From a virus, in IMG/VR virus record IMGVR_UViG_3300037322_000228, positions 1 to 31,212 of that record: a stretch of DNA of 31,212 bases; one strand, 5' to 3'. Below, piece by piece: positions 6,642 to 31,212 of the stretch. The stretch's first letter is position 1; each line of letters begins with the position of its first letter. The notes under the pieces were generated by a model. It made no database searches and had not been told where the DNA came from. It was given only the letters and a program-made list of their open reading frames with translations. The position numbers and the translations under genes are program-made.

Positions 6642-6978
6642 CTGAGTCGATCTTTATTTCGTAAACGCCTTGAGCAACTTCTGACTTATCTTTCTGACCT
6701 AGCTCATTTTTGCCGAGCCAAATTAGCATTGAGACATTCCCAGCCATTGCAACGTCATACTGTTTTTTTAATAAATTGATTCTAAGTGGTTCTTTCTTTT
6801 GTTGTTTATACTCGGAAAAACTTAACCCAGTGCGCTCTTTTATTCTTGCTGATAAAGTGTCTATATTGATACCTAGCTTTTCAGCACAGTAAACTTGAGA
6901 AGCCCAGACTATTAAAGCGTCTAGCTGATCCCACCCGTTAAACTCCATCTCTTCAAGGTCTTTAGTTGGTCGTGCCAT
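6625..6978 (-). CDS. terS: Terminase small subunit
   Basis: This 117-aa protein starts at ATG 6978, with GGAG a few bases upstream; a GTG at 6981 is in frame. It recognises the packaging site and hands DNA to the large subunit. The N-terminal half looks like a helix-turn-helix (WDQLDALIVWASQVYCAEKL and GINIDTLSARI). The C-terminal stretch YDVAMAGNVSMLIWLGKNEL is the conserved 'A..GN..ML.WLGKN.LG' end found in many small terminases. It overlaps the methyltransferase gene upstream and the large subunit downstream. The call is supported by both sequence pattern and position. Confidence 0.8.
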   Translation of the reverse strand: MARPTKDLEEMEFNGWDQLDALIVWASQVYCAEKLGINIDTLSARIKERTGLSFSEYKQQKKEPLRINLLKKQYDVAMAGNVSMLIWLGKNELGQKDKSEVAQGVYEIKIDSDDERV

Positions 6979-8218
6979 CACGCTCCACCTTTAGTTCTTC
7001 GTATGTTTGATTTGTTAGTTCTAGCGTTGCTTTCTTACCAGTGTATGCTTCCCAGCGTTTAATTATAACGTCACAATATTTTTCATCTAACTCTATAGTT
7101 AGTGACCTTCTTGATGTTTTTTCTGCGGCTATTATTGATGTACCACTTCCGCCAAATGGCTCGTAAATATATTCACCAGAATTTGTGTGGTTGTTAATTG
7201 AGTTTACATATAGGGCGACTGGCTTTTGAGTTGGGTGAGATGTTTTCCCTCCTCCATCTTTTTCAAACATTACGTTTTGAATATCCCATACAGTTTTTTG
7301 CTTCCTATCTCCTAGCCAGTTATGATTGGCCCCCTTTCTTATTCCATACCAGCAAGGCTCATGCTTCCACTGGTAGTCAGACCTAGATAGTGCGTGAACA
7401 TTCTTGTTCCAAATTATCTGTGCTTTAATTTCAAAACCGGCCCTCTTTAAACCATCCATTACAACGTCTGTAAAAAATGATGCATGCCAAACATAAGCTA
7501 TGTTACCTTTATGAAGAACATAAGAGTCGTACCAGTCTGATCTATCATCATTTTGCAAATTTGAGCTTTCTTCTCTTTCCGTCTTTTTAACACCTTTAGC
7601 CTCTGCTCTCCACCCTGCCTCATACTTAACACCGTAAGGTGGGTCTGTTATCATTGTATTTGGGCTTTGACCGTTTAAAAGCTTCTCAACATCATCAATC
7701 ATGGTTGAGTCACCGCATAACAGCCTATGATTCCCAAGCAACCATAAATCACCCTTGCGAGTAATAGGATGAACCACTTCAGGCACAGCATCCTCATCAC
7801 TTTGAGGGTCAAACTTCTCAACTGGCTCAATAACGAAGTCTTTAATACCCAACAAATCAATATCAAAGTCAGGGCCAAAGTCGAGCATCTCAGTATTAAC
7901 CATACTCAAATCTAATTCGGCCCACGAGGCGATTGCGTTATCACTTGTTAGGTAAGCATATTCCTGCGCTTCGCTTTCGAAGTCCTGATACATAACAGGA
8001 AGCTTGTCCATTTTAAGTTTACGCGCAGCTTCAATTCTTCCGTGGCCGGCGACAACAAAGCCTGATCTATTCGAAACAACGATAGGATTGCGAAAGCCCT
8101 GGAACTCGATCAGTTTTGCGAGTCTGTCGATTTGTTCTTGGCTGTGAATATTGTTATTTTTTGGACAGGGAACAAGTTTAGTTATATCAACCAAACTGAT
8201 TTCTCTTGACTGAATCAT
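6962..8218 (-). CDS. ParB-domain DNA methyltransferase (beta class, N6-adenine or N4-cytosine)
   Basis: The protein is 418 aa from ATG 8218; an in-frame TTG at 8242 would add eight residues. Residues 10-90 form a ParB/Spo0J-like nuclease-type domain, with GHGRIEAARKL near 60. The rest is a methyltransferase: DPPY (motif IV) at 192-195, HPTQKP at 328-333, and the AdoMet-binding motif EPFGGSGTS at 353-361. Motif IV preceding motif I marks the beta class. The fusion is a known phage type. It lies directly upstream of the small terminase gene, so it may modify phage DNA before packaging or protect against host restriction. No matching restriction enzyme gene is present. Confidence 0.92.
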   Translation of the reverse strand: MIQSREISLVDITKLVPCPKNNNIHSQEQIDRLAKLIEFQGFRNPIVVSNRSGFVVAGHGRIEAARKLKMDKLPVMYQDFESEAQEYAYLTSDNAIASWAELDLSMVNTEMLDFGPDFDIDLLGIKDFVIEPVEKFDPQSDEDAVPEVVHPITRKGDLWLLGNHRLLCGDSTMIDDVEKLLNGQSPNTMITDPPYGVKYEAGWRAEAKGVKKTEREESSNLQNDDRSDWYDSYVLHKGNIAYVWHASFFTDVVMDGLKRAGFEIKAQIIWNKNVHALSRSDYQWKHEPCWYGIRKGANHNWLGDRKQKTVWDIQNVMFEKDGGGKTSHPTQKPVALYVNSINNHTNSGEYIYEPFGGSGTSIIAAEKTSRRSLTIELDEKYCDVIIKRWEAYTGKKATLELTNQTYEELKVERDGTTN

Positions 8219-8255
8219 TCCACCCACTAGGTTTTTAAGCAACTTGCTTTTAAGT

Positions 8256-12173: not shown

Positions 12174-12316
12174 CTTATCATTCATTCATGCGCCTAGGGT
12201 TTTGGGCTTGCGTTAGCTTTTTATGTATGGTCGCATTAGAGAACCCAAAAACTTTTAAAGGTTTATCCAATGCGCTTACTTTTAATCTTTCTTTTTTCTT
12301 GCTCGACAGTGAATAA
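12170..12316 (+). CDS. Possible 48-aa membrane peptide
   Basis: A frame from GTG 12170 overlaps the preceding stop (GTGA) and encodes MTYHSFMRLGFWACVSFLCM, continuing to FFLLDSE. Residues 8-23 are hydrophobic. It fills the 96-base gap before the lipoprotein gene and overlaps that gene's start by 47 bases. No good ribosome binding site is visible; ATG 12188 is another possible start. It is listed because the overlap style matches its neighbours, but it may be chance. Confidence 0.3.
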   Translation: MTYHSFMRLGFWACVSFLCMVALENPKTFKGLSNALTFNLSFFLLDSE

Positions 12317-12797
12317 GCCATCAGTCACAGTCCAAGAAATAGTCGAGGCATGGCCATCAAAGATTTATTTCACCACTAAAAGAACTGAGCCATGGGTTAT
12401 TAAAGCTGTGGCTGACTCCAATTGTGTAATGAACTTAAAAGAATTTAGAGATGAGGTTGGTCGCTTTGGTTGGTTTTCTTACTCAGATCATACTGGCGAC
12501 AAGGTAGCAAAGAATCTTTTCTCAGAAGAATTAACCGAGATTGATCTTCATAGGTTTGTTAATCCCTGGACAAGTGCAGTCGCCGTTACGTTTCCCGATC
12601 AAAAAGAAAGAATCTTTTTTAACTCAAGAAAGAACGCACGTAAGAGATCCGCTTATATTGCCAGCGCTATTCACGAAAGGCTGCATCTTCCTCCTGGCAA
12701 TTACTCCCATCCCTTTAATCACACGATTGATCGTCCTGCTTCTGTGCCTTACAAGATTGGAGAGATCGCGGAGAAATATGCACCAAGATGCTTCTGA
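12270..12797 (+). CDS. Exported lipoprotein-like protein with an HExxH metallopeptidase motif
   Basis: The protein is 175 aa from ATG 12270 with AAAGG upstream. The first residues, MRLLLIFLFSCSTVN, form a short signal peptide ending in a lipobox-like LFSC (imperfect at position -2), so the product may be a lipoprotein anchored at C11. Residues 135-139 are HERLH, a zinc metallopeptidase HExxH motif. H147 or H151, or a later Glu (E165 or E168), could be the third ligand. I know of no phage family with this combination. It might act in the periplasm on envelope proteins or peptidoglycan. The two motifs are seen directly; the activity is inference. Confidence 0.65.
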   Translation: MRLLLIFLFSCSTVNKPSVTVQEIVEAWPSKIYFTTKRTEPWVIKAVADSNCVMNLKEFRDEVGRFGWFSYSDHTGDKVAKNLFSEELTEIDLHRFVNPWTSAVAVTFPDQKERIFFNSRKNARKRSAYIASAIHERLHLPPGNYSHPFNHTIDRPASVPYKIGEIAEKYAPRCF

Positions 12798-13803: not shown

Positions 13804-14091
13804 ATGCACCTGACTATTTTGGGAAGAAAGATCAGAGTAAAAGTCATACTTCAAAGAAATCTTATTAAGCTTGCTGAGGATCCCAACACTGTCGCCATGT
13901 ACGATCCAAACAATCAGTGCATTTATATTTCAAAAGAACTCTCAGAGAAGCAAAAAAGATACTATCTTATTCATGAAGCAGTGCATTGCCTCCACGATTT
14001 AACAGGTATTGATCAGACTCTTCATGAATCACTAATCGAGGTTATTTGCCAGAGCACCGCCACTCTCTTTGAAGACCTTTGCCGAAAATGA
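13804..14091 (+). CDS. Minimal ImmA/IrrE-like zinc metallopeptidase
   Basis: This 95-aa protein starts at ATG 13804 with AAGGAAG upstream. A short beta-rich N-terminus ends in CIYISKELSEKQKRYYLIHE. HEAVH at 57-61 is the zinc motif, and E75 or E79 in TLHESLIEVICQS can supply the third ligand. This small form of the ImmA/IrrE or SprT-like fold is common in phages, where it is thought to cleave repressors or other targets. No repressor gene is visible here, so its substrate is unknown. It overlaps the next gene by four bases (ATGA). Confidence 0.75.
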   Translation: MHLTILGRKIRVKVILQRNLIKLAEDPNTVAMYDPNNQCIYISKELSEKQKRYYLIHEAVHCLHDLTGIDQTLHESLIEVICQSTATLFEDLCRK

Positions 14092-14324
14092 ATCGGGTTA
14101 TTTTCTTCCCTTTGCTCTTTGTTCAAACAGAAGAAAACCTTACTGACCTACTTAAGACGCAGGATCGCCTATATTACGCGCGAGTTTCGTTTCTAAACAC
14201 TATTAAAAGAGAAAACCCATACCAACAGCGACTCGCCCACGACAGGCTTAAAACAATAATTAAAGAGCGAATATTTGTGGTTAGGTCAGAAGATTCGAGC
14301 GCAGATGAGTGCTCAGTAAATTAG
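14088..14324 (+). CDS. Hypothetical helical protein
   Basis: The protein is 78 aa from ATG 14088, overlapping the previous stop (ATGA); a TTG at 14079 is an alternative. A hydrophobic start (MNRVIFFPLLFVQ) is followed by a basic helical stretch (DLLKTQDRLYYARVSFLNTI and RLKTIIKERIFVVR). The N-terminal stretch is too short for a confident membrane segment or signal peptide. It is the last gene of the rightward arm and overlaps the exonuclease gene tail-to-tail by 44 bases. No family is recognised. Confidence 0.5.
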   Translation: MNRVIFFPLLFVQTEENLTDLLKTQDRLYYARVSFLNTIKRENPYQQRLAHDRLKTIIKERIFVVRSEDSSADECSVN

Positions 14325-15234
14325 ATTTTTCTCTTAGCGTTTTACCACATTCAATGCATTGATAGGTTTTAAAGACACCTTGGTTAGTTATTGTGGGCTC
14401 AATCTTTCTCATCTCACTAGATCCGCAATCACACTTATTGTCCTGGCTAAAAACATTAAACTTAATACGCTTATCATACCGCCTGAGTTTTAAGTATATT
14501 GCCTCAAGGGTTAAAACGTCCCGACAGTTGTAGTCTTCAAGCTCTTTAAATGCGTCCACATTACCCAGAGCACACTCTTTAAAAAGACTCATGCCTGGAT
14601 ATTTTCCATGAGCGAGCTTTTCAATAACACCCAGGAATCTTGCTAGATACTCTAGCTTATTAGAAGTGAGCCGAAAGTTACTCTTTGCAATCTGATAGGT
14701 GCAGACCCTTCGAAAGTCCTTCATGCTGATCATGTCGTAAAAAACAAATCTAGCCTTAAGCATTTTAACATCAAAGCTTATATTGTGAGCAATAACGCAG
14801 TCAGCAGAGGCAAGTAAGTCATAGGCTTTTTGTACCAAAGCTCTATCGTTTCTCGGATCATTCGGATCAACTGAGTGATAAATCATCTCTTCTGAATCAA
14901 GCCATTTTGCAGCAAATGATAAAAGAGTCCAGTCCTGGTCTATTTGAGAAACGCCTATATGCTGCTCTCTTATCCCATAAGTGTAGACAGTTAGGGGAGC
15001 AGTCTCGATATCTATCAGGAGTATTCTTGGAGTAAACGGATCTATCAGAGAGGTTTTCTGATTAGGGTGAACAGGTAGGCCAGCAAGAGCGAGTAGACCG
15101 TTAAAAGTTAGGTGCCTAAAGTAATGATGCGAAACACCTGAATCAACAAACTCGTTTCTAGTTGGTTTTCTTCCAAGCTCAGCAGCGAGCTTCTTAAGTT
15201 TCTCGACCAGAAGTAAGTCGCCATCTGACACCAC
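14281..15234 (-). CDS. DnaQ-like 3'-5' exonuclease with N-terminal helical domain and zinc ribbon
   Basis: The protein is 317 aa from GTG 15234 (a second GTG follows), with AAGGAT five bases upstream. Residues 10-55 resemble the HNH/homing-associated helical repeat (KLAAELGRKPTRNEFVDSGV). The exonuclease core has LIDIET (D75, E77), HNISFD (H150, D155) and YNCRD (Y235, D239), the DEDDy set. The C-terminus has CDC at 268-270 and CIEC at 293-296, a likely zinc ribbon. It is the last gene of the long leftward arm. It probably processes DNA ends in replication or recombination; all catalytic residues are present. Confidence 0.88.
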   Translation of the reverse strand: MVSDGDLLLVEKLKKLAAELGRKPTRNEFVDSGVSHHYFRHLTFNGLLALAGLPVHPNQKTSLIDPFTPRILLIDIETAPLTVYTYGIREQHIGVSQIDQDWTLLSFAAKWLDSEEMIYHSVDPNDPRNDRALVQKAYDLLASADCVIAHNISFDVKMLKARFVFYDMISMKDFRRVCTYQIAKSNFRLTSNKLEYLARFLGVIEKLAHGKYPGMSLFKECALGNVDAFKELEDYNCRDVLTLEAIYLKLRRYDKRIKFNVFSQDNKCDCGSSEMRKIEPTITNQGVFKTYQCIECGKTLREKSNLLSTHLRSNLLT

Positions 15235-15286: not shown

Positions 15287-15442
15287 CTATTTTTTATTGA
15301 TGAGCGAAATTATGCGCTGAATGAGTACTGCTGTTTTTGTGTCATTATTAAGCAATGCTTGAATCTTTTGAGCCTCAAGCTTACTTAAGGATGCTGATTT
15401 GTGATCTTTGCTTGGCTTACTGGCATCGTCTTGGCGCGGCAA
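15287..15442 (-). CDS. Small basic protein, 51 aa, TTG start
   Basis: A frame from TTG 15442 gives MPRQDDASKPSKDHKSASLS, then a helical end, TAVLIQRIISLINKK. GGAG lies exactly seven bases upstream, inside the end of the spanin-like gene, suggesting coupled translation. It otherwise fills a gap of about 180 bases. The basic N-terminus and amphipathic C-terminal helix suggest a soluble binding protein. The TTG start lowers confidence. Confidence 0.45.
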   Translation of the reverse strand: MPRQDDASKPSKDHKSASLSKLEAQKIQALLNNDTKTAVLIQRIISLINKK

Positions 15443-15734
15443 GGCATATCTCCAATCTTTGAGTTACGTCTTGAAAATGATCTCTCAATCTTTGGTAGTC
15501 TTCTGCGCTTGTTGAGATGTGACCGAAACAATCTGTTTCATAATCCACTTCTCCATTAAAGCAAGAACACATTGAGTTTTCCAAGACTACGCACTGATCA
15601 ACTCTTGGTGCTCTTATTCTCTGGCTGTTGCAGCTTGACGTTATACTCAACAATATAAAGAAGCTTATTAAGATTGATAAGTTTAACAGCATCACGCGAC
15701 GCTCTTGCGAAAACAATCTGCTTAATGAGTTCAT
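15417..15734 (-). CDS. Spanin-like outer-membrane lipoprotein
   Basis: The protein is 105 aa from ATG 15734, with GAGG six bases upstream. A 14-residue charged start is followed by a hydrophobic segment (MLLNLSILISFFILLSITSS) and a lipobox Cys at residue 35, so the mature protein would be an outer-membrane lipoprotein. It is encoded in another frame over the 3' half of the 89-aa gene, the nested arrangement seen for Rz1 within Rz. The mature part is Cys-containing (CVVLENSMCSC) rather than Pro-rich, so it is not a typical Rz1. It sits downstream of the endolysin. A lysis role is inference from signal and context. Confidence 0.6.
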   Translation of the reverse strand: MNSLSRLFSQERRVMLLNLSILISFFILLSITSSCNSQRIRAPRVDQCVVLENSMCSCFNGEVDYETDCFGHISTSAEDYQRLRDHFQDVTQRLEICLAAPRRCQ

Positions 15735-15867
15735 GTCGTGCCTCTCCGATTGAATTATGGTCTGACCTGATAGACTGAATCTTCCAAGCTATATAAGCCT
15801 CACTAAACCTTTCTAAAAGTTTTGCAGTAGTTTCCCATGCAGCCAAGAATGATATTAGTGAAGCCAT
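15598..15867 (-). CDS. Lysis-cassette protein of unknown role (possible inner spanin or holin partner)
   Basis: The protein is 89 aa. The N-terminal 32 residues are mildly hydrophobic and amphipathic (MASLISFLAAWETTAKLLER), and a helical central part follows (HELIKQIVFARASRDAVKLI). No strong membrane segment is visible, so a normal Rz or holin is not well supported. Its 3' half is overlapped in another frame by the lipoprotein gene, as Rz is by Rz1. It lies two genes downstream of the endolysin. The gene is likely real from its packing, but its role is open. Confidence 0.55.
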   Translation of the reverse strand: MASLISFLAAWETTAKLLERFSEAYIAWKIQSIRSDHNSIGEARHELIKQIVFARASRDAVKLINLNKLLYIVEYNVKLQQPENKSTKS

Positions 15868-15871
15868 ATAA

Positions 15872-16144
15872 TTATGCTTTCTCGATTTCTTTTACCATTC
15901 CATTAACTTTCTGGATCAATACGATAACCTCAGAAACATCGATATCTTTGCCTTGCTCAATCACTTCTTTCCATGCAGTGAAAGAATCAATGATTAAAGG
16001 AAGTTTTACAAGAAGTTCCATGGCTGCTGGCAAATCAGCAAGATCTACTTTTTTGTCAGCAGAAATTTTCTTTGCAGCTAAAGCAACGTGCTTAAGTGAC
16101 TCAACTACCTTTTCAATTTTATCAATACCAATTTGCTCACTCAT
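15872..16144 (-). CDS. Hypothetical helical protein following the endolysin
   Basis: The protein is 90 aa, overlapping the endolysin stop (ATGA), with GGAGG four bases upstream of the start. It is helical throughout and acidic-basic balanced: IEKVVESLKHVALAAKKISA, then LPAAMELLVKLPLIIDSFTA, then VIVLIQKVNGMVKEIEK. The middle helix is hydrophobic but interrupted by K and D. It recalls small helical proteins encoded beside phage endolysins, but I cannot name a family. A holin-like or endolysin-regulating role is possible. Confidence 0.6.
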   Translation of the reverse strand: MSEQIGIDKIEKVVESLKHVALAAKKISADKKVDLADLPAAMELLVKLPLIIDSFTAWKEVIEQGKDIDVSEVIVLIQKVNGMVKEIEKA

Positions 16145-16551
16145 GTATCCTCCATAAATTCTGTTCCTATCTGTATATGCAGATGAGGTTGTTTGTTCTT
16201 AGATTTATCCACAATAAATCGACGTTGTCCATCGGTCAGGGACTTTGCCCCTATGTGGTTATACTTTTTATTGAAATCATAAACAAACATTTTTACAAAA
16301 TTCTCAGTCCAGTCTCGCGTGCGTATGTCGGCTGCTCTTCTCTGGTTGTGAGAATTGCTCACTCTTTTTAGCTTAACATCTTCGTCTATAGTTGTGACTG
16401 TTTCTGTTAGGACAAAATCATGACCTCTGGCAGAACAAAACCAACCCATCTCTACTAGGATTGAGAATAAGTTACGATCAAGGGTTTTTGTTCTTTCTTC
16501 TACTTTTTTGTTTTTAAATTTAACCACTGACGCCAAAGATGTATTGTCCAT
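16141..16551 (-). CDS. M15-type peptidoglycan peptidase (endolysin)
   Basis: This 136-aa protein probably cuts peptide crosslinks in peptidoglycan, as L-alanyl-D-glutamate or D-Ala peptidases of family M15 do. The zinc signature is visible: H68 with D75 in SHNQRRAADIR, and HLH at 123-125 in PHLHIQIG. That gives the 'H......D ... H.H' order of M15C enzymes. No signal peptide is present, so release needs a holin, which is not clearly identified. AAGGAT lies seven bases before ATG 16551. The length is at the short end of the family, but all ligands are present. Confidence 0.82.
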   Translation of the reverse strand: MDNTSLASVVKFKNKKVEERTKTLDRNLFSILVEMGWFCSARGHDFVLTETVTTIDEDVKLKRVSNSHNQRRAADIRTRDWTENFVKMFVYDFNKKYNHIGAKSLTDGQRRFIVDKSKNKQPHLHIQIGTEFMEDT

Positions 16552-19928: not shown

Positions 19929-20165
19929 TTAGTTCTTCCCTTCCATTAATATTTTTTTAATTATCCTTACGTCACCTTTAATATCGTTTAACTGAGTATC
20001 AAGATGCCTCATGTCGTCTTGTCTAAATTCTTTAACCTTACTTATTACTTTTAACTCTACTGCTTCAAGCTCTGATTGATGCCACTTTACGCCTGTGAAT
20101 GTTAATCCCACTAGGAAGACAATAAAGCCGACAAACTTTTTCAAAGCTTCAAGTATTAGGTTCAT
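19929..20165 (-). CDS. Membrane-anchored coiled-coil protein
   Basis: The 78-aa product has a membrane segment at about residues 9-27 (KFVGFIVFLVGLTFTGVKW), then a charged helical stretch, ending in a coiled coil (DIKGDVRIIKKILMEGK). It overlaps the signal-peptide gene by four bases (ATGA). Proteins of this shape include holins, XhlA-like factors and inner spanins; here the membrane segment is at the N-terminus, more like a spanin. Its place between tail genes rather than in the lysis cassette is odd and may tie it to the exported protein next door. Confidence 0.6.
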   Translation of the reverse strand: MNLILEALKKFVGFIVFLVGLTFTGVKWHQSELEAVELKVISKVKEFRQDDMRHLDTQLNDIKGDVRIIKKILMEGKN

Positions 20166-22222
20166 GGTATTTTACCATGACAGAAAAGAGTTATTGTCTC
20201 ATCAAGAGTTATGTTGTTGTTGTATGCCCTAACTACTACTGATGAGGTGCTTGCTGGCTCAGCAGCGCAAGACGTTCCTGATCCAGAATTATGTCCTACA
20301 TTACAAGAGCAATTGGGAGCCTCTGCCCAGTACCCAGCGGCAAAAGTAAAAGTCCTTACTGCCGTACCAGACGAAGATGCTACACACCCACCAAGATCTC
20401 TACTTAGAGTGTTTCCGACAGCACTCGCAACGCTACACAGAACAACTTTTATTGCCCCTGGACTTGTAACAACATCTTGAAAAGTCCCTGTGATTATGTT
20501 TCTAAACTTGTAGTCAGGAGGAGATTTTGTGCAGATAACTGAAACAGATTGATCCCAAGAATAGTAGACATTAGTAGGCGTGACAAAGTTTGCTATAACA
20601 AAGGAAGATGTAGAGTTTGAGTTTAAAGTAATAGCCCTTTCATTTACTCCTGTAGTTGTTCCATCTATTGTTGCAGTACAAACAGGATTAGCAGTAAAGA
20701 TCGAAGTGTTATAAGTACAAGTCACTCTGCTCGTAGCTCCTGATCCAGTGATTACGCAGTTTCCATTTATAAAGTCTAGTGTGTCTCCCGTAACAACTCC
20801 TGAGCCACTTACTTTTGCGCTGAATACGTTTTCACAATCAGTCTGTCTTACACACTGTTGAGAGTATAGATTAGTTCTAGCGTTTAGGTTTTGCCCTCTG
20901 AATTTCACGGTGAAGGAGTAGCTTAAGTTTCCGATATTGATTCCATAATACGAAGCAGATATGGGGGATATGGAATTATGGAGGGCTTGTCCTACAACCC
21001 TAAAAGATGTTTGAGAAAACTTTACTGCGGAAACCACATCCCCCATTGTGCCTGGATTGCTAGAATAACCTACTATCTCTATATCTCCTGCGTTTAGCGG
21101 TACTCTTACCAGGTCACCGATAGTTGTTTGATTTGGAATGTCGCTACTTATTTCTATTCCAGGAGGAAGATTAAATATATATTGTCCTGATCCTGGTGCT
21201 GATCCTGCTGCTGATGCGGCAGAGTATTTAAACTCACACTCATAGTTTCCTCCAACTTGACGGCATCTTACCTTGTCACGCTGTCTTACTGTCGCCTTAG
21301 TAGGGTTTGTTGTGGTTGCAGTTATTGTCATTGGACCATAATCTATCCACTCTCCCACTGATCCAGCTTCATAGATTGAGCCAGCAGGTGGCGGACCCAC
21401 ATAGGCATCATCTATTACTATTGTACCTGTTGATGATCCTGCGTCTACTTGAATACCGTTGGAGGTTGTGCCTCCGATAAACATAATTTCATAAACTGTA
21501 CTCGAGCCCGTTGTGTCGAGAAAGATACAGTTTGCGACTACAACTGCACCATTAACGCGAGGACAAACTCTAGCGGAAACAGCCGTATTGCTTGCGATTA
21601 TTGAGGCATAAAGCTGACGGTTAGAGGTCGCAGCATATAGAGTTGAGTCTTGAAAGATCTCTACAGTGTTCGCTGATGTTATCGCTCTAAATGATTTTGC
21701 CCCCGCAACAACCTGAGCAGCAAGAGATGTTGAGGCAACAGTAGCAAGCCCCGAAACTGTCCACCCTGTTTGGTAGGCTTGATGCTCAAAGCCTGGATTT
21801 CTTAATCTGTTTTGATTTCGCGTCTCTAGGAGCATTGATGATGTAGCTATTCTTGTTGCTTGGTTATTCGGAAGAACGATCTCGGTTACGTTTACAGGCT
21901 CAACCGTTGTCTCTGTTGTAACGTCAGGTGCAGTTGCGCTTCTTTCTTCTCCGCTTGAGTCTTTTTGATAGAGTCTTGAGTCTGATTTAAAGTATATCTT
22001 ACCAAAGCCAGCTCCAGGATCAGACTGAGTGTCCTCCTCCTCTAGAAGCAAAGCGCCGCTTAATTGAGCACCACCTGAAAGATTAAACTGATCAACTTGA
22101 GCATCTATTGTTTCATTGTTTCCAAAGAGCAAGCCATTCTGGAAAGTCTGCAACCTTTGACCATTAGGCCAGATCGCTGCTGCTGAAACATTTAGGGAGA
22201 TTAAAAAAAATAGCCACTTCAT
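20162..22222 (-). CDS. Exported Cys-rich adhesin-like protein encoded in the tail cluster
   Basis: This 686-aa protein starts MKWLFFLISLNVSAAAIWPN, a typical Sec signal peptide with likely cleavage near residue 14-16. A GAGG site lies six bases upstream. After an unusual fibre-like segment (residues 17-130), residues from about 140 (NRLRNPGFEHQAYQTGWTVS) have the 'N.GFE...GW' start of CBM4/9-like carbohydrate domains. The rest is beta-rich with 16 cysteines (an even number), suggesting up to eight disulfides formed outside the cytoplasm. Neither a signal peptide nor disulfides fit an ordinary virion protein assembled in the cytoplasm. It may be a surface protein of the infected cell. Confidence 0.75.
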   Translation of the reverse strand: MKWLFFLISLNVSAAAIWPNGQRLQTFQNGLLFGNNETIDAQVDQFNLSGGAQLSGALLLEEEDTQSDPGAGFGKIYFKSDSRLYQKDSSGEERSATAPDVTTETTVEPVNVTEIVLPNNQATRIATSSMLLETRNQNRLRNPGFEHQAYQTGWTVSGLATVASTSLAAQVVAGAKSFRAITSANTVEIFQDSTLYAATSNRQLYASIIASNTAVSARVCPRVNGAVVVANCIFLDTTGSSTVYEIMFIGGTTSNGIQVDAGSSTGTIVIDDAYVGPPPAGSIYEAGSVGEWIDYGPMTITATTTNPTKATVRQRDKVRCRQVGGNYECEFKYSAASAAGSAPGSGQYIFNLPPGIEISSDIPNQTTIGDLVRVPLNAGDIEIVGYSSNPGTMGDVVSAVKFSQTSFRVVGQALHNSISPISASYYGINIGNLSYSFTVKFRGQNLNARTNLYSQQCVRQTDCENVFSAKVSGSGVVTGDTLDFINGNCVITGSGATSRVTCTYNTSIFTANPVCTATIDGTTTGVNERAITLNSNSTSSFVIANFVTPTNVYYSWDQSVSVICTKSPPDYKFRNIITGTFQDVVTSPGAIKVVLCSVASAVGNTLSRDLGGCVASSSGTAVRTFTFAAGYWAEAPNCSCNVGHNSGSGTSCAAEPASTSSVVVRAYNNNITLDETITLFCHGKIP

Positions 22223-27008: not shown

Positions 27009-27431
27009 TTAATTAAAAGTAAAATCAACCCTAATGGTTAATAGTAAAGTGCATTTAAACGTCTTGTCATTAGTATTCAAAGCCTCAATTGAAATCGACT
27101 GAATTAAAGCATCATTAAAGGGAACCTGGGTTTTGATCTGCCCAGGTGAAATGATTGCATTTTTGACATTGATACCCAGAGTATAAAGAGCGTCGTGAGC
27201 GTCTATCTGGGATTGCTTGGACGAAGAGTAAAGCTCAATCGTCACAGGGATCTGTTCAACGTATGAATTGCCGGTGTACTCAGGAGAGTTCTGTCCAAAG
27301 ATTATTTTATACCTACAGTCCACATCAATTCGAGCAATATCATCATTGCCAACAGGATCATCAATTTGTTTATAAGCGGCGTCCACATTCGCAATTCTAC
27401 CCTTAAAGTAAGCCCGAAGAGATGCTATCAT
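27009..27431 (-). CDS. Tail terminator / tail-completion-like protein
   Basis: The protein is 140 aa, overlapping the connector gene by four bases (ATGA). Start IASLRAYFKGRIANVDAAYK, then the beta strand pair VDCRYKIIFGQ and YVEQIPVTIELYSS, then helices and a C-terminal strand (TFKCTLLLTIRVDFTF). This mixed alpha-beta layout, the size, and the place between connector and tail tube fit gpU-like tail terminators that cap the tube and join it to the head. The assignment is by order and fold pattern. Confidence 0.65.
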   Translation of the reverse strand: MIASLRAYFKGRIANVDAAYKQIDDPVGNDDIARIDVDCRYKIIFGQNSPEYTGNSYVEQIPVTIELYSSSKQSQIDAHDALYTLGINVKNAIISPGQIKTQVPFNDALIQSISIEALNTNDKTFKCTLLLTIRVDFTFN

Positions 27432-28105
27432 CTACGCACCAAGCGACCAGAAGTTAGGCTTACACCTGTATCAGGCAAGCCATCGCTATCTACATCCAGA
27501 GTTATAGCCGCTCGATTAGAAGCTCTCTCAGCGTGCTCTCTATACATCTGAGCCTTAGCAGAAAAGATGTCTCCCACCTCGTTTTGAGCATTAGAAAATA
27601 TCGTGCTTAAGGTTAAAAATTTAGACCACTGTCTTACCTCTTGAGTGTTGTGGATATTCTCTTTTACAAGAGGGACTCCGGGTAAACGATATAAGCCGCG
27701 CTGCAATAATGAATCAAGAATGATTGATTGCGATGATCTGTGAATGTGATTAAAAGAAGAGTAACCCTTTGGGAGGTAATCATAAATGGCTGATTCGTGG
27801 CTTAACAGATCTCCATCTGTAGAAAAAAGCTTGTCTGTAGCCGCACTTAATACAGAAATGTTTGAAGTTACTGACTGAGTTCCGTTAGCGTTTGTTAACT
27901 CTAACTGTATTGGAATAGAGCCTGTAACAGAAAATGAAAAATCTAAAAAATTATTAGGGAATATATTTAAAGGAACCATATTAATGGTCAAAGTAATTGC
28001 GGTTATCTCTAGCTCATCTGGCGTTATAAATGATCCGCTTGCATCAATTCGCACCTTATCGCCTATTTGTGTGACAGGCTCAAATCTTAAGACTGGAAAA
28101 ATCAT
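27428..28105 (-). CDS. Head-tail connector with an N-terminal Ig-like domain
   Basis: The protein is 225 aa. Residues 1-88 look like an Ig or PKD-type beta-sandwich (VRIDASGSFITPDELEITAI and PIQLELTNANGTQSVTSN). Residues 105-225 are helical (SQSIILDSLLQRGLYRLPGV, then FLTLSTIFSNAQNEVGDIFS, then KAQMYREHAE) and end in a 'DVDSDGLPDTG' stretch. That helical part matches gp6/gp15-like adaptor proteins, which bind under the portal and often end in such a D-rich loop. It lies between the fibre gene and tail terminator. The fusion of an Ig-like domain to an adaptor is unusual and may dress the neck. Confidence 0.65.
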   Translation of the reverse strand: MIFPVLRFEPVTQIGDKVRIDASGSFITPDELEITAITLTINMVPLNIFPNNFLDFSFSVTGSIPIQLELTNANGTQSVTSNISVLSAATDKLFSTDGDLLSHESAIYDYLPKGYSSFNHIHRSSQSIILDSLLQRGLYRLPGVPLVKENIHNTQEVRQWSKFLTLSTIFSNAQNEVGDIFSAKAQMYREHAERASNRAAITLDVDSDGLPDTGVSLTSGRLVRR

Positions 28106-31100
28106 AAAGCCGCCGGTATTAAATTAGTATTAGTTTTAATCAAATCAAGCTCTGCATCAATGCCTGTTAAATCTGTATTGTCTAAAGTATCAACCTTTGT
28201 TTTGATTAAGGCAATATTAGCATTGTCAGGAGCCACATAAGAAGCTGATGCCAGTCTCGTCGAAGTAGCTACGTCAATCCTAGTTAACTCTGTAGCGAGA
28301 TTGGTTCTAACTGCGTCAGCGTTATTAACAGCGGTCGGAGGAGAGACAGCATTTCTGCTAGATACTGTTACATCCACTCTAGCGAGTTCAGTAGCAAGTT
28401 CTGTCCTTACAGCAGAAGCAACAACGGAAGCAGATGGAGCGGAAGCCGCATCAAGATTCGCCCCTGTAGAGCCAGCAGTCAAGTGCCCTGCAATTGCTTC
28501 ATCCCATACAGCGTCAGCTATCGCCCCAACAGTCAAAGAAGATCCTCCGGCTGTTTCAAGTGCCTTGGTTGTAAACCTCAATCCGCTTGAGTTTTCTGTG
28601 AGCGTATCTATTTTAGATAGAGTTAAATCTTGAGCTGCTGATAGTCCTGATCCAGAGGAAAAAGGAATAACCAAATCTGGGTTTGAGAATATGGTCCCGC
28701 CTGTATTATCGATCATTGTTGTGGTTAGTCCTGTTGCTGAATCCCTGCCCCAACCGTTCACTATTGTAAGTGGCACAGAAGGATTTGAAACGTTCTTGAT
28801 TTTAAAGTCTGTAAAAATATAGTTAGCTTGGTTTGTAGCTTCAACAAATTGTCCCTCATCCCTGATCCCCTGAGCCGAATATAACCACGAAACAGCATAG
28901 GCGTAAACTGTTGACCAAGAAAGAGAAGGAGAATTAATCTCTACAAGGAAAAGATTGTCTACGACAGCAATCCCTGTAACTGAAAAGCCGTCTATTGCAT
29001 TACTTACGTAGACCGAATCAATCTCAGGACTCACTGATCTTGACAGACCATTGATTGTAACGGTGTCGGATAGCTCGATAAACAAATCAGCAGTCGCCGC
29101 CGCTGCGCTCATGACTCTTATTCTTGCTGTATAGTTTGCAACAAAGGGAGCAGTGAGGGTTAAAGTTGTTCCTGCTACGATCTCATTAAATAATTCAACG
29201 GTATTAGTTACGTCGAATATCTGCACCCTGCTATTCGCTCTTAATCCACTAATTGTAATTGCGGAAGTATCTAGAGGGTAGAGTGCTGCTTCTTGATCTG
29301 CTGATGTTGAATCTGTATTAACTCTAATATAAGTAAGAGCGTTTGACACGTTAGCTGTTACTGTCGTTATTCTATATCTGAGCCTAAAGCCGATAGTTGG
29401 ATTAAGTGTTTCAGTAATTAGGTTAGCCGCATCTAGTGTTTTGTAAACGGCACTGAACCCTGAGCCAGTATCTATATCATACTCAAGAGTAAAGTTTCCA
29501 AAATTGGCACCTGTTAAGACAGGAGCCGAGTTATCAAAGGCAGTATGCCCGATAGCAAAGTATCCCATAGTGAAAATAATTTGGTCACCAATGTTAGGCA
29601 TAACGATTTGACCAGCAGAGGTAAATCCTGCACCTGCTCCTAGTAACACCGCTTCATATTGAGAAGCTGTAAAGGCAGTAGGTTCATTAAATGCTAAACA
29701 AACTCTGCCCTGCGTATCATCTTCAAATATATCAAACCAGTGCGAGCCGTAAACAGATACCCCTCCAATAGTAGAGTTAGAAGCTGTTCTCATGCCTTTG
29801 ACTTGAGTGTTCGCTGATAAAGTTTGAACCGGCGACCCTGCACCATTGCAATTTTCATAGGTGATATTTTTAGAAGTGTTAAGTCCTATGAACGGTCTAA
29901 TCCTAGTTGCCTCTAAAAAGCATCTTTGAATTCTGACTCCATCATTGTTTCCACCGTCCTGATAAATATAAGCGGGGGCTGCTGATGCGTTCACATCTAC
30001 AGGTACAGCATAAGTTCCGACATTTCTAAAAGTTAAGTTTGAGCAGTTTGAAGAGTTAAAAACTCCGAGGTAAGGACCAAGCTCTCCGACGAAACTCAGG
30101 ATAACTCCATCCACCATAATATTATCGCAAGAGACAGTGCACTGAACTGCATATTTTCCTGTAGTGGCATTAGTAACTCCAACAATGCGATCAATATAAT
30201 TAAACCCTTGAACCAAAACATTCGAGCAGGTTGTAAATACTAGGGTTGTTGCATAAGAAATAAAGTCATTAAATACTAAGTTTCTACACTGACTAAATAG
30301 CACGTTCCCTGAGCTTCGAGCATATTGCACAACACCTGTCCTAGTAGCTGAGAAAGTATAGTTAGAGCATCCAGTGAGCACCATACTGTGACCGTTAGAT
30401 GAAGCGTTGGGCCTTACGAATCGACAGTTACTTATCGTGCCACCTAGAGAGTTATTAAGTCCTGTAAAAGTTTGCCCAGCGATAAATGCCCCGCAGGAAT
30501 AGTTATCTAATTCTGTAGGGCTTGCCTCGTTGCTTGATGAGTGAGCGTCAAAGGTAGCGACATTAATCATTCTAACTCTAAAAGGAGAAGAGAAAAAGTG
30601 GTACCAGTCATTTATAAAAAACTCAAAATCAATCTCACCTGACGAGGTCGTGGTAAAATCCGGGCGTGAGGCTATATTAGAGTTAGGCACCTGATTAACG
30701 GAATCACCTAAAGCAGATGTTGCCTGTCTTCCAATGACGTTTGGTATCCTTACTCTGCATCCTGCAGGAGGCACAAAACCAGCGTTGTCGGTTCCATCAA
30801 ATCCAATTCTTACTTGACCTGTTCCGATTGTTTCGCAGAACTTAGAGCGAATGTCTGTCGACAAGTTTGTCGAGTTGTACCATGTATCTCTAATACAAGG
30901 ATAGATTTCAAACTCATTTGATCCTGCTGCTGTTTCAATCCAAACTGAGGGAACGTGAGTTCCCTCGCCTCCGCCATTAGTCGGAGTCTGAATAACTTGA
31001 TTAGCAGATCCAGTTGTTTCGTCGAGGTAAAACCAATCGCCGCGAGTCCTGTAAAAACCAAGACGAGGCACAACATTAGCCACTGCTTGCCTCTGTACTA

Positions 31101-31212
31101 CTTCGATCCATGAGGTCGTATCTGCCTGAGTAGCCGTTGCGCCAATACCAGTCAAGGCTCCTGCTGCAAAATTGCCACCTGTCACTTCTCTAAATTTTAT
31201 AAATCCAGTCGT
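28102..31212 (-). CDS. Beta-helix fibre protein, main part (starts at 475 across the circle junction)
   Basis: The frame is open to the window edge and continues in frame to ATG 475, giving about 1,152 residues. A GTG at 31185 in the frame is an internal valine. Residues near 300-575 of the full protein show short repeated beta strands with Asn/Cys/Thr turns (VLTGCSNYTFSATRTGVVQY, NLVFNDFISYATTLVFTTC and CSNLTFRNVGTYAVPV), as in right-handed beta-helix adhesins or depolymerases. The C-terminal 140 residues hold ADAVWDEAIAGHLTAGSTGA, two 'AVRT.LATEL.R.DV' repeats and a coiled coil. It may bind or degrade a surface sugar. Confidence 0.85.
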   Translation of the reverse strand, partial: TTGFIKFREVTGGNFAAGALTGIGATATQADTTSWIEVVQRQAVANVVPRLGFYRTRGDWFYLDETTGSANQVIQTPTNGGGEGTHVPSVWIETAAGSNEFEIYPCIRDTWYNSTNLSTDIRSKFCETIGTGQVRIGFDGTDNAGFVPPAGCRVRIPNVIGRQATSALGDSVNQVPNSNIASRPDFTTTSSGEIDFEFFINDWYHFFSSPFRVRMINVATFDAHSSSNEASPTELDNYSCGAFIAGQTFTGLNNSLGGTISNCRFVRPNASSNGHSMVLTGCSNYTFSATRTGVVQYARSSGNVLFSQCRNLVFNDFISYATTLVFTTCSNVLVQGFNYIDRIVGVTNATTGKYAVQCTVSCDNIMVDGVILSFVGELGPYLGVFNSSNCSNLTFRNVGTYAVPVDVNASAAPAYIYQDGGNNDGVRIQRCFLEATRIRPFIGLNTSKNITYENCNGAGSPVQTLSANTQVKGMRTASNSTIGGVSVYGSHWFDIFEDDTQGRVCLAFNEPTAFTASQYEAVLLGAGAGFTSAGQIVMPNIGDQIIFTMGYFAIGHTAFDNSAPVLTGANFGNFTLEYDIDTGSGFSAVYKTLDAANLITETLNPTIGFRLRYRITTVTANVSNALTYIRVNTDSTSADQEAALYPLDTSAITISGLRANSRVQIFDVTNTVELFNEIVAGTTLTLTAPFVANYTARIRVMSAAAATADLFIELSDTVTINGLSRSVSPEIDSVYVSNAIDGFSVTGIAVVDNLFLVEINSPSLSWSTVYAYAVSWLYSAQGIRDEGQFVEATNQANYIFTDFKIKNVSNPSVPLTIVNGWGRDSATGLTTTMIDNTGGTIFSNPDLVIPFSSGSGLSAAQDLTLSKIDTLTENSSGLRFTTKALETAGGSSLTVGAIADAVWDEAIAGHLTAGSTGANLDAASAPSASVVASAVRTELATELARVDVTVSSRNAVSPPTAVNNADAVRTNLATELTRIDVATSTRLASASYVAPDNANIALIKTKVDTLDNTDLTGIDAELDLIKTNTNLIPAAL
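31086..31212. repeat. Terminal direct repeat, right copy (circular closure)
   Basis: Exact copy of bases 1-127. Removing it gives a 31,085 bp circular genome. The coding frame of the large fibre gene continues from this copy into base 128 of the window. Confidence 0.95.

Follow-up and report, generated by a model that had tools for sequence, protein, structure and literature searches.

A tail-fibre-like protein of 686 amino acids (P0001), encoded in the tail operon of the phage represented by IMG/VR record IMGVR_UViG_3300037322_000228, is well supported, by comparison with its relatives, as a protein exported through Sec. This export is supported by two independent lines, the signal peptide and the cysteines; the steps after export we infer. 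The explanation tentatively preferred here is that P0001 is a receptor-binding fibre that would be exported, disulfide-bonded in the periplasm, released at lysis and then joined to virions. Tailed phages are taken to build their virions wholly in the cytoplasm, and no prior report of a Sec-exported tail fibre with a signal peptide of this kind was found in the open-access literature searched.

The window (the whole record, 31,212 nt) has an exact 127-bp direct terminal repeat (1-127 and 31086-31212) and therefore represents a complete phage genome of about 31,085 bp. Since no sheath gene is evident in the window, the virus is likely a siphophage. The fibre gene was correctly placed by the original prediction and lies on the minus strand (Table 1). 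Its location between the tail-tip genes and the hub-like gene, in the tail-tip/fibre region of the structural operon, is that of a virion tail fibre or receptor-binding protein. The same synteny is kept in phage L007 and even in L009, where the identity of the tape measure falls to only 31%.

Table 1. Coordinates of the fibre gene, its predicted parts and other features of the window
Feature	Position	Strand	Basis or remark
Major capsid protein	2266-1415	minus	PHROG match
Portal (probable)	5310-3820	minus	position and synteny
Terminase large subunit	6641-5370	minus	PHROG match
DNA methyltransferase fused to ParB-like domain	6962-8242	minus	adjoins terminase
Protein with lipoprotein-like leader	12270-12797	plus	HERLH motif
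Peptidase M78/IrrE-like protein	13804-14091	plus	HEAVH motif
RNase H-like exonuclease	14281-15234	minus	57% identical in L011
Probable lysis block (putative endolysin, 90-aa, 89-aa and spanin-like ORFs)	15417..16551	minus	53-60% identity to L011
Hub-like protein	19917-17506	minus	position and synteny
78-aa protein (one N-terminal TM segment, then probable coiled coil)	19929..20165	minus	start overlaps fibre stop (ATGA)
Exported tail-fibre-like protein (P0001), 686 aa	20162..22222	minus	translation; syntenic orthologues L007 (41% identity) and L009
Cys-rich C-terminal modules, residues 457-686 (12/16 cysteines)	20165..20854	minus	paired gain/loss of cysteines
Knob-like domain, residues ~290-445	20888..21355	minus	low-confidence model, fold comparison
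CBM-like jelly-roll domain, residues ~130-280	21383..21835	minus	fold comparison
N-terminal region of mature protein, residues 17-108	21899..22174	minus	alignment; common only to phages of same tail type
Signal peptide, residues 1-16	22175..22222	minus	rule-predicted cleavage after Ala14 or Ala16
Tail-tip genes	23728-22224	minus	position and synteny
Tape measure	25551-23725	minus	position and synteny
Major tail protein	26999-26061	minus	position and synteny
Neck/tail protein	27009-27431		1.4% cysteine
1027-aa protein	28102-31185	minus	14 cysteines (1.4%)

Using the major tail protein as bait, the syntenic phages L007 and L009 were recovered, while searches with the fibre itself yielded L011, L013, L014, L015, L024, L028, L029 and L030. 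A phage-collection search with L028 added the cultured Sulfitobacter phage pCB2047-C, Synechococcus phage S-RIP1 and the podovirus MW202898; P0001, L014 and L015 had no tblastn match in the phage collection. The family comprises ten members, all but one from metagenomic viral contigs. The genes upstream of the fibre in the relatives belong to different virion types: in L013, L014 and L029, for instance, they encode large proteins of the internal-virion type, and in L015 a long protein of the central-tail type. P0001 itself has no match in Pfam or PHROGs, and nothing significant was obtained in Pfam and PDB sequence searches; L028 and L030 do match a known tail fibre family, phrog_24210 (PHROG E 7e-24 for L028).

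The N-terminus of P0001 reads MKWLFFLISLNVSAAA-IWPNG, with the charged start, hydrophobic core and Ala-x-Ala of a Sec/SPase I-type signal peptide, in agreement with the original prediction. The ORF starts right after the upstream stop and its next Met is residue 129; therefore, no alternative ATG removes the signal peptide. A simple set of rules (not SignalP) was used to call signal peptides in 275 non-redundant ORFs of these phages, each at least 150 aa long. Signal-peptide-like starts were found in 22 ORFs, comprising 10/10 fibre family members and 12/265 others, two of the latter being gp68 and gp75 of the cultured Bdellovibrio phage phi1422. By the same rules, P0001 shows the n-, h- and c-regions and the small residues at -3/-1 of a Sec-exported SPase I substrate, and a lipobox is absent from all ten members.

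These ten are the family members with a readable 5´ end: the window, L007, L009, L011 (read from a TTG start at 7881, where L013 is identical), L014, L015, L024, L028, L029 and MW202898. Their signal peptides differ in sequence but stand at the same place. The N-termini are alike in the window, L007 and L009, and most of the others are mutually unrelated. Judged from this comparison, the family signal peptide is not a chance feature, as it is kept across several unrelated tail types.

The second line of evidence comes from the cysteines. P0001 has exactly the 16 cysteines originally predicted (2.3% of residues), and they do lie toward the C-terminal side, none of them before residue 220 (residues 220, 232, 320, 329, 457, 463, 489, 502, 515, 564, 596, 613, 638, 640, 652 and 681). 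Most other virion proteins of this genome contain 0-0.8% cysteine, the exceptions being the 1027-aa protein and the neck/tail protein. In the family alignment, most variable cysteines are gained or lost as adjacent pairs. Both the 220+232 and 457+463 pairs are missing from L009 and L015, 320+329 are both missing from L014 and L009 (L015 retains one), 640+652 occur in the window protein only, and a pair at alignment columns 213+262 occurs in L009 and L015 only. Because L013, L014, L015, L024 and L029 end at contig ends, their cysteine counts are minima (at least 4 in L029).

Related fibres that have no signal peptide are nearly devoid of cysteines (one in the 651 aa of L030, none in pCB2047-C or S-RIP1). 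The L030 fibre, most of which has homology to L009 and L028 in rearranged order, keeps 0/23 aligned cysteines, replaced by A, S, V, T, Y and F, whereas exported relatives keep 278/391 at the same overall identity of ~37%. Aligned cysteine cells are not independent, and a P value computed over them is therefore not to be relied on; the simplest comparison is that of L028, which has 11/13 cysteines kept versus L009 and 0/9 versus L030. The C-terminal tip domain of the phrog_24210 fibres of Sulfitobacter phage pCB2047-A/C and Synechococcus phage S-RIP1 is likewise homologous to that of exported L028 (41% and 33% identity), but these fibres, unlike the exported family, lack both signal peptide and cysteines. 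Cysteines that are paired, and lost where export is lost, are those expected of a disulfide-bonded periplasmic protein. The original view of P0001 as an exported, adhesin-like tail-operon protein is well supported, with a signal peptide kept across unrelated tails and a cysteine content that tracks it.

Regarding its fold, the full model of P0001 has a mean pLDDT of 51, and the CBM-like domain, already recognized in the original prediction, has local values of mostly 51-81. In the fold comparison, residues ~117-280 are closest to tailspike 4 (TSP4) of phage CBA120 (Z 13.5) and also match Klebsiella tailspikes and CBM4/16/61 (Z 10-12), as well as a porphyran-binding CBM (Z 11.9). In a second model, of residues 285-686 (pLDDT 54, too weak for judging disulfide geometry), the knob-like domain most resembles Dettilon tailspike gp208 (Z 8.6), with a less certain resemblance to reovirus sigma heads (Z 6-7) and adenovirus attachment heads. 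Fibre-type receptor-binding folds were therefore found in P0001, on low-confidence models. The receptor-binding protein could instead be another tail protein (the hub, a 182-aa or a 104-aa protein). L007 (14779-17205) has two tandem copies of the Cys-rich C-terminal module.

Residues 17-108 carry the motif WPxGxxLxTFQNG, and matches to relatives with other tails begin at residue ~109 or later, which suggests a virion- or partner-binding end. The window, L007 and L009 have homologous tails and a common fibre N-terminal region. The rest of the fibre has recombined along with the lysis block, and in L011 both sit in a phage whose virion genes are different. The ORFs of this block have no Pfam family, and their functions are putative. 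The exonuclease, an RNase H-like protein with an HNH-associated repeat, was passed on with the lysis block as well, between phages that differ in their virion genes. An N-terminus that follows the tail type, joined to a remainder that recombines with the lysis block, is as expected for a virion fibre, although the N-terminal swap could be plain recombination.

According to the preferred explanation, the receptor-binding fibre would be a late product that leaves the cytoplasm through Sec, loses its signal peptide and folds in the periplasm with about eight disulfide bonds, probably as a trimer. As a soluble exported protein with neither a lipobox nor a known outer-membrane route, it should stay in the periplasm until lysis by holin, endolysin and spanin. 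The fibre may then meet the cytoplasmically assembled virions and dock through the N-terminal region that is specific to the tail type, so that the CBM-like, knob and Cys-rich modules would be free to bind the next host. Of the two roles originally proposed, the evidence agrees best with attachment to particles at the time of lysis; coating of infected cells (exclusion, clumping) is less likely and has no direct support. The lipobox of the exclusion lipoproteins is missing, and no route through the outer membrane was identified.

More broadly, several unrelated tailed phages may share a Sec-exported, periplasm-bonded fibre that joins the virion only after lysis, a two-compartment virion completion that we put forward still more tentatively. 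One fibre family with exported, cysteine-paired and unexported, cysteine-free forms is a natural experiment on the rule of cytoplasm-only assembly. Should virions contain the exported form, their assembly would involve two compartments; should they lack it, these fibres would form a new class of large proteins secreted by phages. To produce such fibres in active form, expression under oxidising conditions would be needed.

The main alternative, though rather unlikely, is that P0001 is a soluble receptor-binding decoy outside the virion, made late and exported to occupy receptors on the dying cell, debris or neighbours, thereby preventing superinfection or the loss of progeny on debris. The signal peptide and the disulfide evidence fit such a decoy equally well, and a second fibre, without signal peptide, is present in L014, L015 and L029. 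There is also a precedent in phage T5, in which the gene of the exported lipoprotein Llp adjoins that of pb5, the receptor-binding protein, and infection is blocked when pb5 is added (PMC9586334). On the other hand, P0001 lacks a lipobox, no path through the outer membrane ahead of lysis was identified, and a decoy would need no tail-type-specific N-terminus, whereas the N-terminal region of the fibre follows the tail type and is not common across phages. The tail-type-dependent N-terminus and the recombination of the remaining part with the lysis genes are the reasons for favouring attachment at lysis over the decoy.

T5 Llp and the Cor protein of T1/phi80 resemble P0001 in being phage-encoded and exported. 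However, they are small lipoproteins, including the one that T5 encodes beside its receptor-binding protein (PMC9586334), whereas P0001 is a multidomain, fibre-like protein. A superinfection-exclusion lipoprotein of the Llp/Cor type was rejected for P0001 because the lipobox is missing, and P0001 should therefore remain soluble until lysis.

It is improbable that P0001 is an ordinary virion fibre that is never exported, with its hydrophobic N-terminus packed into the tail tip as an uncleaved anchor. The operon position and the fibre-like domains are compatible with this, but the charged start, hydrophobic core and small -3/-1 residues recur on mostly unrelated N-termini and tail types, and the cysteine content tracks the signal peptide. 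The tail-type proteins PblA and PblB of a streptococcal prophage act as adhesins and so resemble P0001 in character; unlike it, they belong to a Gram-positive host and are released by lysis, and they are not known to have a signal peptide. Adhesion mediated by PblB has been described (PMC4508584).

Least probable is that P0001 is an adhesin displayed on the surface of a predatory host and carried by the phages that infect such hosts, along the lines of the mosaic adhesive trimer (MAT) fibres of Bdellovibrio, which share a signal peptide and phage-fibre-like domains with P0001 (PMC10769870). In its favour, gp68 of phi1422 (and gp75) is a signal-peptide protein among fibre genes, but gp68 is not detectably homologous to P0001 (hhalign probability 3.6%), no window protein matches the three Bdellovibrio phages phi1422, phi1402 and MAC3UK, and phi1402 shows no such fibre. 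Like P0001, gp68 is a fibre-like sequence of the tail-fibre region followed by a small one-TM, coiled-coil-like protein; unlike that of the window, phi1422 is contractile-tailed, and gp68 as a homologue of P0001 is not supported. The fold match H9C0P2 has the same 614-aa length as gp68, and gp75 (44298-44810 in phi1422, L018) has a fibre-tip-like sequence. The genes of MAT fibres lie on bacterial chromosomes, and behind the signal peptide these fibres have a conserved N-terminal beta domain of ~130 aa (PMC10769870); no S74 domain was found in the window. Scans of genome contigs with P0001 and with the family alignment gave no relative that would indicate a host, nor did an L024 query in plasmids. 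Bdellovibrio is a lead only, on the grounds that phi1422 has an analogous fibre-region protein and that Bdellovibrio exports MATs (PMC10769870), since the window phage shows no homology to phages of Bdellovibrio.

A small one-TM protein is encoded directly 3´ of the exported fibre, overlapping or at most 1 nt away, in the window, L007, L009, L011 and L028, those of the four relatives being homologues of the 78-aa protein. MW202898 has a small TM protein of other sequence after its fibre, so that a one-TM neighbour is present in every exported-fibre relative with a readable next gene. In the L013 and L014 records, the one-TM gene lies at the opposite contig end, as expected if these records are closed circles, while the gene after the fibre in L030, pCB2047-C and S-RIP1 is of another type. 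By the positive-inside rule, the coiled coil would lie in the periplasm in L009, L011 and L028; the rule gives no clear answer for the window and L007. Holin genes commonly come after fibre genes, and a dedicated fibre partner is therefore only one option; a holin or spanin-like role is as likely for the 78-aa protein.

Other genes of the window deserve mention. The 1027-aa protein, encoded between the capsid and neck genes without a signal peptide, is possibly a head fibre. The product of 12270-12797 combines a short lipoprotein-like leader, MRLLLIFLFSCS, with an HExxH-type motif; it has no Pfam match and is a possible exported metalloprotease. The small M78/IrrE-like protein matches its Pfam family at the cut-off (22.0 bits) and is also present in L011.
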